From: Planctomycetaceae bacterium
GTDB lineage: Bacteria > Planctomycetota > Planctomycetia > Planctomycetales > Planctomycetaceae
NCBI GenBank assembly: GCA_020850695.1
Contig: JADZEF010000273.1
Coordinates: forward strand, 1 to 64,000
DNA: 64,000 nt
Direction: 5' to 3'
Part shown: one piece after another, positions 49,567 through 54,368 of the stretch
Position numbering within the stretch: position 1 is the stretch's first letter
How the letters are laid out: the number at the start of each line of letters is the position of its first letter
The notes under the pieces: model-generated
The model's input: the letters and a program-made list of their open reading frames with translations, nothing else
What the model was told of the DNA's origin: nothing
The model's database searches: none
Made by a program: the position numbers and the translations under genes

Positions 49567-50382
49567 TTACGCTCCGGGCTGCCAGACGAGGATTTCCCCC
49601 TTGCCGGGAATCGAGCGATCGCCGCTATAGAGTGCGTAGGCTCCCTCCGACTCCTCATTTGGCAGCCGGATGCCGAACGGGGCCAGAGTCCGGGCGAGGA
49701 TGTTGATGAAGACGGGGTTCAAGTGGGCGGCGTAGGCGAACGTGGGCATCATCTGCAGCGGCTTCAAGGAGATGATGGTGCCGCGCTTCATCCAGGCGCC
49801 GGTGCGGATCTCGGCCCCGCTCATCAGGATGATCGTTCCCCCCTTCATCTGCAGGCCGGTGAAATCGCGCGTCGGGCCACCCACGACGATCGTCCCCCGG
49901 CGCATCCGCATGCCGACTTCGAGACCGGCCGAGCCGTCGATGATGATCGTTCCGTTGCGCATCCCCTGGAGGGCTCCGCGGTACGCCGCGCCGACCTGCC
50001 CGCCCGCGTTGCCGTGGATGTGGATGAAGCCGTTCTTCATCTCCGCGCCAATCCAGTCCCCGGCGTTGCCATGAACGTTGATCAGTCCGCCCGTCATGTA
50101 GGCGCCGAGGTGCATGCCGATCGAACCGTGGATCGTGATGGTCCCCTTCGACATGGCGCGGCCGACCCAGCGGACCTTGGGCATTGTCCCGTGAAGCACA
50201 AGGTCTTCGCACTTCTCTCCCTCGACGTCGAAGAACTCGCCCAGCGGGAGCTGCCGCTTGCCATGATAGACGGTGAGCGCCCGGATCTCGGCGTTCGAAA
50301 GTCCGCCGATGACGTCCGGCGTGAGGACTTCGGCCTCGAGGGGGACGGTCGGCGTGCGCTTGAGATGGAAGGTGACAGGCAT
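49567..50382 (-). CDS. fhcC: Formylmethanofuran dehydrogenase subunit C
   Basis: A 271-residue subunit of the complex linking C1 units on methanofuran (or methylofuran) to formate/CO2. Its body is the right-handed beta-helix shared with the C-terminal part of glutamate synthase: successive Gly-x-Ile-x-Ile-x-Gly turns such as KGTITIHGSIG, GLINVHGNAGDWIG, NGFIHIHGNAGGQVG and NGTIIIDGSAG. It is structural, packing the FwdA and FwdB subunits. ATG at 50382 is 14 bases after the fhcA stop, so the two are co-transcribed. Upstream in-frame codons to 50487 lie inside fhcA. Confidence 0.94.
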   Translation of the reverse strand: MPVTFHLKRTPTVPLEAEVLTPDVIGGLSNAEIRALTVYHGKRQLPLGEFFDVEGEKCEDLVLHGTMPKVRWVGRAMSKGTITIHGSIGMHLGAYMTGGLINVHGNAGDWIGAEMKNGFIHIHGNAGGQVGAAYRGALQGMRNGTIIIDGSAGLEVGMRMRRGTIVVGGPTRDFTGLQMKGGTIILMSGAEIRTGAWMKRGTIISLKPLQMMPTFAYAAHLNPVFINILARTLAPFGIRLPNEESEGAYALYSGDRSIPGKGEILVWQPGA

Positions 50383-50396
50383 CGATCCAGTCCACG

Positions 50397-52037
50397 TCAG
50401 CCGGGGATCGGGACACAGTCGCGCAGATGGGGATGCTCGATGCGTTCGAGCTCGACCGGATAGTTCTCGAACTGCATCGTGTAGCACTCTTCGAACAGCG
50501 GCCGCATGAAGTCGTCGATGTCGGGCTCGCAGTGGGGGCGGACGAGGAACTCGTGTCCCTGAGGAGCTTCGCGGATCTCTCCCTCTTCGATCACGATTTC
50601 ACCCGCTTTGATGACATACCGCGGATGGCCGAACATGCGGACGACGTCATGGTCTTCTTCGTAGATCACGAGGTCGGCGTCACAGCCGATGCCGAGGTTC
50701 CCCTTGTGTGTCAGTCCGAGCGCCCGTGCGGGACCGGCCGACATCGAGATGGCCACCTCGTACAGCGAATACTCGCGGGTCACTTCGGGGAGCCGGATCT
50801 TTCCCTTGATCTTGTCGGGGAGCTGCGCAATGCATTCCTTCCGGAAGTCTGCCCGCATCAGCAACTGGAGGATTTCCGGATATCGCCAGAAGCATCCGCC
50901 GTTGGGGTGGTCGGTCGAAAGGAAGACCTGCCACGGGTCTTCGATGAGGAGCAGCAGCTCGAGGCCGGCCGCCCACTGGACGGCATTGACCAGGTTGCTG
51001 GGGCGATAGGTGTAGGGAACGATCCCGCAACCGGTTTCGTTCTCGACGTCGAGGTTGCCCCACTTGCGGCCGGTGAGCTTGTGGAGCAGGTGCTGCCACG
51101 GGCCGTCGGCGGTGATCGTCACCGTGTCGCCGAAAAGAACCGCTCCCGCGTCTGTTGTCAGGTTCTTGTGACTGTTGAAATGCTCGGCCAGTTCGGCGGT
51201 GCTGGAGCACATCGTGTCCCAGCCGTCGCCGCCGTAGGCGTGGTATTGCGAGTGGGCGATGTGAGCGCGGCGGCCTTCGAGGCGGTGGAGCGTGTCGAGC
51301 GTCGTCGAGATGTTGCCGGGTGCGCCGAGGTTATTGCAGTGGAGGTGCATCGGGTGCGGGAGGCCCAGCTCGTCGCAGATCCGTGCCAGTTGGGTGACGA
51401 TCGAACCGGGGGTGAGGTTCCGGTAGCCCTCGATCGGCGAGTCGAGCTGCTTGGCGTCCTTCCCCCACTTCCAGGCGGTGACCCCCCCGGGGTTAACGGC
51501 TTTGATCCCGTACGACTTGGCAGCCCACAAGTACCATGCGACGACCTGCTTGGCCCGCTCATACTCTCCCTTTTCAAGCTGGTCGAGCATGATCTCGTTG
51601 TTCGCCATGAGCGTCAGCGACGCCTTGTCGACGATCGGGATGTCAGCGAGTTCCTCGTGCGTGTGTCGGGCTGACAGGACCGGAACGGCGGCTTCATTGA
51701 CCGTCGTCCAACCCATCCCCGCATAGAGGTAGCCGGTGGCGAACGTCGTGGGGGCCATGCCTCCGAGCCCGCTGCGTCGCGACTTGGTGCGGATGAACGC
51801 CTGGGTGCGGCGATGGTCTTCGGGCGTCATCGCGCGGGCGAAGTTGATCGCTCCGCCGGCGACATGCGTGTGCACGTCGACCCCGCCCGGGAAGACGATC
51901 ATCCCTGTAGCGTCGATCGTGCGGCCGCCATCGACCGAGGCGACGAAGCGGCCCTTGTCGTCGATGCACAAGTCCTTGACCTGGCCGTTGATGCCGTTGG
52001 CCGGATCGTAAACCTTTCCGCCGGTGATGCGAAGCAT
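50397..52037 (-). CDS. fhcA: Formylmethanofuran dehydrogenase subunit A, amidohydrolase
   Basis: A 546-residue metal-dependent amidohydrolase that interconverts formylmethanofuran and formate plus methanofuran. The expected dinuclear-metal ligands are visible: His56 and His58 (DVHTHVAGG), Lys179 (YGIKAVNPGG, the lysine normally carboxylated), His231 (HLHCNN), His259/His262 (HIAHSQYH) and Asp376 (STDHPNGG). At 546 residues it is normal length. It is upstream of and coupled to fhcC. A 356-base gap containing a large inverted repeat separates it from fhcB, so it may have its own promoter. Confidence 0.96.
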   Translation of the reverse strand: MLRITGGKVYDPANGINGQVKDLCIDDKGRFVASVDGGRTIDATGMIVFPGGVDVHTHVAGGAINFARAMTPEDHRRTQAFIRTKSRRSGLGGMAPTTFATGYLYAGMGWTTVNEAAVPVLSARHTHEELADIPIVDKASLTLMANNEIMLDQLEKGEYERAKQVVAWYLWAAKSYGIKAVNPGGVTAWKWGKDAKQLDSPIEGYRNLTPGSIVTQLARICDELGLPHPMHLHCNNLGAPGNISTTLDTLHRLEGRRAHIAHSQYHAYGGDGWDTMCSSTAELAEHFNSHKNLTTDAGAVLFGDTVTITADGPWQHLLHKLTGRKWGNLDVENETGCGIVPYTYRPSNLVNAVQWAAGLELLLLIEDPWQVFLSTDHPNGGCFWRYPEILQLLMRADFRKECIAQLPDKIKGKIRLPEVTREYSLYEVAISMSAGPARALGLTHKGNLGIGCDADLVIYEEDHDVVRMFGHPRYVIKAGEIVIEEGEIREAPQGHEFLVRPHCEPDIDDFMRPLFEECYTMQFENYPVELERIEHPHLRDCVPIPG

Positions 52038-52132
52038 GGTGGAGATCGGAGCGCGACGGTCAGGATGACATCATATTCAACGCATACACTCATCTTGGCT
52101 GAGTGAATTCAGCAAACGACCGACGAAGTCAG

Positions 52133-52272
52133 AGGTTTGAATAAGGAACCCAGGAAGGCAGGAAAAAGACAGGAAGCAGAGAAAAGCCAAATCCAGATCT
52201 GGACGACGGCTCGGCCTCTGATTCTGGATTCCTTGCCTTTTTCCTGCTTTCCTGGGTTCCTTATTCAAACCT
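52133..52272. repeat. Large inverted-repeat element between fhcB and fhcA
   Basis: Arms of about 36 bases, one mismatch in the compared part, beginning AGGTTTGAATAAGGAACCCA and ending with its complement (TGGGTTCCTTATTCAAACCT). The 68-base centre is itself partly palindromic around CCAGATCTGG. No coding frame is evident. It looks like a small non-autonomous mobile or hairpin element. The rest of the gap (52038-52132 and 52273-52393) shows nothing recognisable, though it is more AT-rich than its surroundings. Confidence 0.9.
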
Positions 52273-52393
52273 TCCCATAAGACGTCGACCGATCCATTAA
52301 AGAGGGTCGTCTGAAACCTTCTTACCCTACTTTTCTTTTGGCAAACCTTGTTGCGGTCTCGGCACCTTGGCCTGAGATGCCTCTTGAACGGCG

Positions 52394-53734
52394 TTAGACC
52401 TGTCGGGTCAACATCTGCGGCTGGCTGCCGTCCGGGAGCCAGAAGGGCTTTCGGGCGATGGCCTCGTTGATGCGGCGGACGACTTCTTCATCGGACGGAT
52501 ACGGCGACTTGAGGGCCGGCTTCAGCGGCATCGGAAGCTCGTCCATGCGATAGGCCGTCCCCGGTGCGGCGATCCCTTGCGGGGCCGTCGTGATGTGCAC
52601 GCGGGCCAGCGCGCTGGTGTGCGTGATGTGGGGATCGAGCACGATCGTCGGAATGCGCTTCAGATGATCGATCGCCGGTTGCGGCATCGTCCCGCCAGGG
52701 TCGGCCCCGATGATGAACGCCGCATCGCAATCGCCGCGGACGAGAACGTCGACCGTCGAGAACTCGCCCGGGTTGTAGCGGGGATAGCCTCGGTTGAACG
52801 AGATGCCGAACGGGTAGCCCGTCTGCCATCGCATGATGACGTCGGCCCCGGTGACGTTTCCGTGGCCGCGCATGGGCATGGCGACGAACTTGGTGAAGGC
52901 GTTCATCTCAGCGGCCAGCATGAGAAGCGCCGCGCTGTTCATGTGCTTGCCGCGGGTCATCGAGAGGCCCATGCCGAAGAACATGCAGCCGAACTTCGCG
53001 GCCTTCATCCGGCGGATGAGGTCGTCGAGCGTTTCGCGCGTCAGGCCGGTGGCGTTGATCTGCTCGTCGGCGACGTATTCATCCTTGATCATCGCCCGCA
53101 GGATCGTGATCAGCTCGAAGTCTTTCCCGGGCTTGATCTGCAGGAAGATGTCCGCCGCGTTGGCGCTCTTCGTTTCGCGGATGTCGACGAGCACCATCGT
53201 GCGGTCCTTACGGCCCCGCGGCAGAAACTTGCTCTTCTGCATGATGGTGTATTTCGTGAAATGGCGGGGATGGCACTCGGCCGGGTTTCCCCCCCAGTAC
53301 ACGATGAAATCGGCTCGTTGCTTGACTTCGCCGAGCGTGCAAGTGACTTTGCCACCCAACTGGGCGGCGATTTCGGTTGGGCCGTGTCAAAGCGACGTGT
53401 GACTGTCGAGCAGCCCTCCGAGCTGGTCGGCCAGGGCGACGCACTCCTTCTGCGCTTCGCAGGTGGTATTGCTCATGCCGTACACGAGCGGCATGTCGGC
53501 TTCGTGCAGCAGCGTGGCCGCCATTTCGATGGCGTCGTCGAGCGAGGCCTCGCGGCCGTCGATGAGGGCCATCGGATACTTCTTCTCGGCGGTGTGGTTC
53601 AGGAACCACGCCGTCCCGAGGACGCACGCCTTGTTCGCCTTATGGATCCGCATCTCGTCGTGATGCAGCTGGATATCGTCGCAGACGCATCCGCAGAACG
53701 TGCAGGTGGCGTTATTGATGACCGAAAGGCTCAT
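52394..53734 (-). CDS. fhcB: Formylmethanofuran dehydrogenase subunit B, predicted selenoprotein
   Basis: The catalytic molybdopterin subunit, 446 residues if TGA at 53389-53387 is read as selenocysteine. Start MSLSVINNATCTFCGCVCDD; Cys11, Cys14, Cys18 and Cys37 are placed to hold a [4Fe-4S] cluster. The in-frame TGA is codon 116, followed by His-Gly-Pro-Thr, matching the Sec/Cys-His-Gly-Pro active site of the formate dehydrogenase/FwdB family (Cys118 in Methanothermobacter FwdB, Sec in Methanopyrus). The frame is uninterrupted on both sides, both halves are well conserved, and a SECIS-like hairpin follows. So this is not a broken gene. Ordinary gene calling gives two pieces, 53734-53387 and 53359-52394. 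It lies downstream of the fwdD-like gene after 298 bases. Confidence 0.9.
53351..53368 (-). promoter_or_regulatory. Predicted bacterial SECIS hairpin
   Basis: Minus strand, 18 nt after the TGA: GCCGCCC-AGTT-GGGTGGC, seven pairs (one G-U) closed by a four-base loop containing GU. Twenty-five bases separate TGA and loop, within the range accepted for SelB-dependent elements. It lies inside coding sequence, as bacterial SECIS elements do. A competing helix, CCCAAC (53381-53376) with GTTGGG (53360-53355), is possible and would place the structure closer to the TGA. Confidence 0.75.
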
Positions 53735-54032: not shown

Positions 54033-54368
54033 TCATTGCGGGATGACGTCGACCTCCCACCCTTTCGAGGTCGGCATCCCTGTCCCGTCCGTGTCTCCCC
54101 CCATCAATCGGCAGGTGGGTGGACCGTAGGGGACGAAAATCATTCCGAGCGGCACTTTCCCCGCCTGACACTTGAACGCCGACTCGCCGAACTCGGTGCG
54201 AATCAACGCCATCTGCCCCTCGGCGAGGCCGATTTCCGCCATATCCTCTGCTGCCATCGTCATCGAATTGGTCAGGGCTTGATACTCGGGAGAGTTTTTC
54301 CCCACGTTGATCAACGACCCCTGCTTCGACGAGCGGGACGAGTTCAGGATAAACCGTTTCGCTGCCAT
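54033..54368 (-). CDS. fwdD: Formylmethanofuran dehydrogenase subunit D-like, dinucleotide-binding domain
   Basis: A 111-residue stand-alone molybdopterin-dinucleotide-binding domain (FwdD/FmdD type). Signs are the N-terminal LNSSRSSKQGSLINVGK, the AAEDMAEIGLAEGQ turn, PLGMIFVPYGPP and a C-terminal GMPTSKGWEVDV. In archaeal Fwd this subunit completes the pterin pocket of FwdB. Methylotrophic proteobacteria, whose FhcB is metal-free, do not use it, so its presence supports a metal-containing enzyme here. It is upstream of fhcB on the same strand. The 298 bases between hold only a small hairpin (53787-53805, GTCGTCC/GGACGAC) and may include a second promoter. Confidence 0.9.
   Translation of the reverse strand: MAAKRFILNSSRSSKQGSLINVGKNSPEYQALTNSMTMAAEDMAEIGLAEGQMALIRTEFGESAFKCQAGKVPLGMIFVPYGPPTCRLMGGDTDGTGMPTSKGWEVDVIPQ

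Follow-up and report, generated by a model that had tools for sequence, protein, structure and literature searches.

The window, a 64,000-nucleotide stretch of a Planctomycetaceae bacterium genome (assembly GCA_020850695.1, contig JADZEF010000273.1, positions 1 to 64,000), carries on its minus strand a gene of the fmdB/fwdB type (52394–53734) that starts with ATG, ends with TAA and contains an internal in-frame UGA at 53387–53389. The minus-strand reading across this codon is ...CTT TGA CAC GGC CCA ACC GAA ATC GCC GCC CAG TTG GGT GGC AAA..., and decoding the UGA as selenocysteine (Sec) yields an intact 446-residue protein with U116 (53734–52394, minus). This product matches TIGR03129 (formylmethanofuran dehydrogenase subunit B) over its full length with 492.5 bits against a cut-off of 327.8. 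The UGA falls at the U position of the U/C-H-x-P motif, here UHGP, which is the metal-binding Cys/Sec position in the active site of FmdB; when the readthrough product was aligned with solved FwdB chains, the residue preceding HGP in the UGA column was Cys or non-standard (X). In FwdB, Sec/Cys is tabulated as the ligand of Mo/W (PMC10100899). Neighboring genes terminate with TGA; the codon is thus a normal stop here, with no reassignment of the code. With the TIGR03129 cut-off passed and the UGA located at the motif, the gene is predicted to encode formylmethanofuran dehydrogenase subunit B as a selenoprotein.

The gene is flanked on the same strand by fmdD (54033–54368; molybdopterin dinucleotide-binding subunit), which scores above the cut-off of PF01568 and under the curated cut-off of NF042908 (E = 1.3e-18), by fmdA (50397–52037; amidohydrolase subunit; TIGR03121, E = 4e-201) and by fmdC (49567–50487; TIGR03122, E = 1.8e-78). 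The fmdC match begins at residue 38, and the real start of this gene probably lies downstream of the mechanical ORF start. The operon order is thus fmdD-B-A-C, with a pterin-binding D subunit, and among relatives with enough flanking sequence D precedes in 71 of 74, A follows in 60 of 66 and C follows in 51 of 64. The preliminary description had named the gene fhcB; because the flanking genes are fmdD, fmdA and fmdC, fmdB/fwdB is the better name. FhcB of the methylotroph formyltransferase/hydrolase complex is a homologous subunit B that serves as a scaffold without a Mo/W cofactor (PMC10100899), whereas the window gene retains this ligand position in the form of Sec and is partnered by FmdD. 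Identity with FhcB, in which the metal-ligand residue is lost and which stands beside FhcD in an Fhc operon, was rejected on the same grounds, and the FhcD/Ftr-type genes of this genome lie on other contigs.

Between fmdB and fmdA, at 52125–52285, is a near-perfect palindrome of about 150 bases (RNA fold of −103 kcal/mol for 201 nt, z −10.8) that belongs to a family with dozens of copies genome-wide, mostly 70–78% identical (93 matches counting both strands), and is a MITE-like or other dispersed repeat within the operon. Rfam microRNA matches at this site merely reflect the palindrome hairpin.

Downstream of the UGA, at 53351–53368 on the minus strand, lies a hairpin GCCGCCC-AGUU-GGGUGGC, whose seven pairs comprise six Watson-Crick pairs and one G-U and whose apical AGUU loop occupies 53358–53361. 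The position, the seven pairs, the loop and the spacing are as first described: the stem begins 18 nt, and the loop 25 nt, after the UGA. The hairpin alone has a fold energy of −13.1 kcal/mol, a stability reached by none of 200 shuffles, and it is the minimum-energy fold of a 50-nt stretch (−18.4 kcal/mol). A competing CCCAAC/GTTGGG helix does exist, as had been pointed out, but the view that it is open which fold forms does not hold: forcing this helix gives −13.0 instead of −18.4 kcal/mol, 5.4 kcal/mol worse, with a pairing probability of about 0, and it is kept in just 30 of 83 orthologues, so that energy and conservation both rule it out as the fold formed. A basal UGAC/GUCA helix also seen in the fold was left out of the element because it is full in only 39 of 83. 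The published model of bacterial SECIS elements (bSECIS) describes an in-frame stem-loop directly 3' of the UGA with the loop 16–37 nt away and carrying G followed by U at its first positions, a stem of 4–16 bp and an MFE of −7.5 kcal/mol or lower (PMC13188914). The window hairpin lies within all of these limits (25 nt, AGUU, 7 bp, −13.1 kcal/mol). An Rfam search gave no SECIS family match, the matches at the site being no more than chance ones, and a model search of the genome for the same element elsewhere found no hit beyond chance level (the next had an E of about 1).

To compare orthologues, we fetched 90 Sec loci from Planctomycetota and three Acidobacteriota MAGs: 10 came from a sampling of the phylum, and 80 were the best loci in a peptide-pattern scan whose patterns were placed well away from the UGA site. 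A few of these are the same gene, leaving 83 non-redundant genes with 69–88% DNA identity to the window. Among cultured relatives, Planctomycetes bacterium K23_9 has the gene (L093). The codon is TGA in all 90 loci and never Cys, with a single UGA per locus and a conserved downstream frame, and the loop stands at an identical distance in 90/90. TGA orthologues with no stem at this distance, the finding that was to count against a SECIS, are therefore not the pattern observed. As a null, synonymous codons were resampled from each gene: all seven pairs are kept in 73/83 (9.7% expected), the AGUU loop in 83/83 (14.5% expected), and the bSECIS constraints are passed by 75/83 (10% expected); because a single supported clade, with the Acidobacteriota MAGs inside it, unites the Sec genes, the 83 sequences do not count as independent, and p-values drawn from them overstate the case. 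The remaining 10 genes have one broken pair. Changes in the stem are one-sided (G-C/G-U, C-G/U-G) and mostly retain G-U pairing. Compensatory changes, proposed earlier as a check, did not appear as double changes in the stems of the 83 orthologues, where coding constraint leaves little room for them, and a column-shuffle control for covariation, with one member of every pair fixed, could give no information.

Such a hairpin could arise as a by-product of a conserved peptide, since Ala-Ala and Gly-Gly codons are naturally complementary: GCN GCN can pair with GGN GGN at most positions, and AAQLGGK is near-invariant among the Sec forms. The synonymous positions, however, are frozen. Synonymous constraint is greatest at codons +7 to +10; codons +9 (CAG) and +10 (TTG) are invariant in 83/83, the latter despite a usual preference for CTG and with an entropy of 0 against a median of 1.87 bits in other invariant Leu columns (mostly CTG/CTC), and codons +7 and +8 (GCC GCC) occupy the top two ranks for constraint among 16 Ala columns. 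The stem, moreover, is kept far above the synonymous null. We also compared 21 non-Sec homologues (10 with Cys, 5 with Gly, 1 with Ser and 5 with the motif lost), and both the AAQLGG peptide and such a stem were absent from all 21. A peptide by-product is accordingly very improbable, and the synonymous-codon tests in the 83 orthologues exclude chance or coding as the source of the preservation, bearing out the earlier statement that the hairpin persists despite its coding context. The one Cys paralogue in the window's own genome (L039; G000:C8:10990-12231) is on another contig, has the motif SLCHSPS and no SECIS, and lies near a ccsB-like gene with no fmdA, fmdC or fmdD within the 15 kb read. 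In FmdB of other planctomycetes (L027, L030–L038), the metal-ligand position is Gly at 5 loci and the motif is lost at 5, which suggests that the metal-ligand residue has been lost repeatedly among planctomycete FmdB homologues.

The genome of the window encodes a tRNA-Sec with anticodon UCA that adjoins selB, as well as selA and selD, and its SelB carries the winged-helix domain SelB-wing_3. SelA scored above cut-off in all 10 genomes that have the UGA gene versus 2/22 with non-Sec copies only (Fisher p = 1e-6). Those two genomes (G315 and G130) have selA with no UGA fmdB in the search, and therefore probably hold other selenoproteins. A search of the window's genome for an FDH-type selenoprotein found no gene with an in-frame TGA besides fmdB. 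Stem-loops 3' of stop codons can stimulate readthrough in other systems, and the UGA might accordingly be read by near-cognate suppression, or be a stop followed by reinitiation to give a split protein, with the hairpin aiding readthrough independently of SelB. The location of the UGA at the Sec/Cys site, the full Sec machinery and the distribution of SelA all argue against this, and we regard it as highly unlikely. A sequencing error or pseudogene lesion, with the hairpin irrelevant, has next to no probability: the genome is a draft of 440 contigs, but orthologues with the same single UGA and a conserved downstream frame at 90 loci refute it.

The hairpin is thus very probably a bacterial SECIS, as originally proposed, its conservation in TGA orthologues and its fold energy both supporting this assignment. 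The UGA, the hairpin, the conservation of both and the machinery genes are established by sequence, and from them we infer, with near certainty for the overall scheme, that the in-frame SECIS would direct SelB to deliver Sec-tRNA to the UGA, giving FmdB with Sec116. SelB with GTP and Sec-tRNA(Sec) would use its C-terminal winged-helix domains to bind the stem with its AGUU cap and would deliver the Sec-tRNA to the UGA 18 nt upstream of the stem, so that full-length FmdB would be made in place of a 115-residue fragment. Sec116 would then be a ligand of the pterin-bound Mo/W, and FmdDBAC would be expected to have redox enzyme activity.

The SECIS stem of E. coli fdhF has a bulged U. The window element resembles this type as an in-frame stem-loop directly 3' of the UGA, and differs from it in a four-base AGUU loop with no bulged U; with the bacterial SECIS consensus (PMC13188914), it shares the G-then-U loop start, the spacing and the MFE limits. 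Sec-fmdB itself was reported in 2016 (PMC4807772) from planctomycete P2 (Rhodopirellula), a host with Sec machinery like that of the window's genome, and from a Lake Washington fosmid, with the same gene, the same Sec subunit and the same fmdD-B-A-C operon. The window gene is therefore a further member of an already reported group. Sec use was predicted there from single genomes, in contrast to the multi-locus comparison made here, and the SECIS sequence, its invariance, its loop and Acidobacteriota members were not found in the passages of PMC4807772 that were consulted. What is added here is how widely the group is spread, what exactly its element is and how strongly that element is constrained.

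Archaeal Sec formylmethanofuran dehydrogenases (Methanopyrus and other methanogens) share TIGR03129 and the same Sec position, but their SECIS lies in the 3' UTR (PMC1088965) and not in frame as in the window gene, and the archaeal peptide after Sec is therefore free. In 9sfi, a solved structure whose chain contains the non-standard residue, this peptide is SVXHGPSLLAVQDVG, compared with HGPTE(I/V)AAQLGGKV in the bacterial form; the lack of AAQLGG in 9sfi fits the 3' UTR location. The SECIS may have shaped the peptide that follows Sec in the bacterial proteins.

Annotation programs take this UGA as a stop, and in many genomes they consequently break up what is likely a catalytic subunit of one-carbon metabolism in bacteria. 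The SECIS set described here is unusually clean, and since its loop is invariant and its peptide exclusive to the Sec form, it lends itself to testing what limits an RNA signal within the reading frame sets on the active site of an enzyme, for which the archaeal Sec homologues with a 3' UTR SECIS provide a natural control. Our broader proposal, which we advance tentatively and rate below even chances, is that a single bacterial FmdB clade, in Planctomycetota and reaching into Acidobacteriota, became fixed as a selenoprotein; its in-frame SECIS would have rewritten the active-site peptide from AFQxVGEV to AAQLGGKV, freezing RNA and protein together and making reversion to Cys hard, and the resulting redox-active Sec formylmethanofuran dehydrogenase may be one of the main users of Sec machinery in these genomes.
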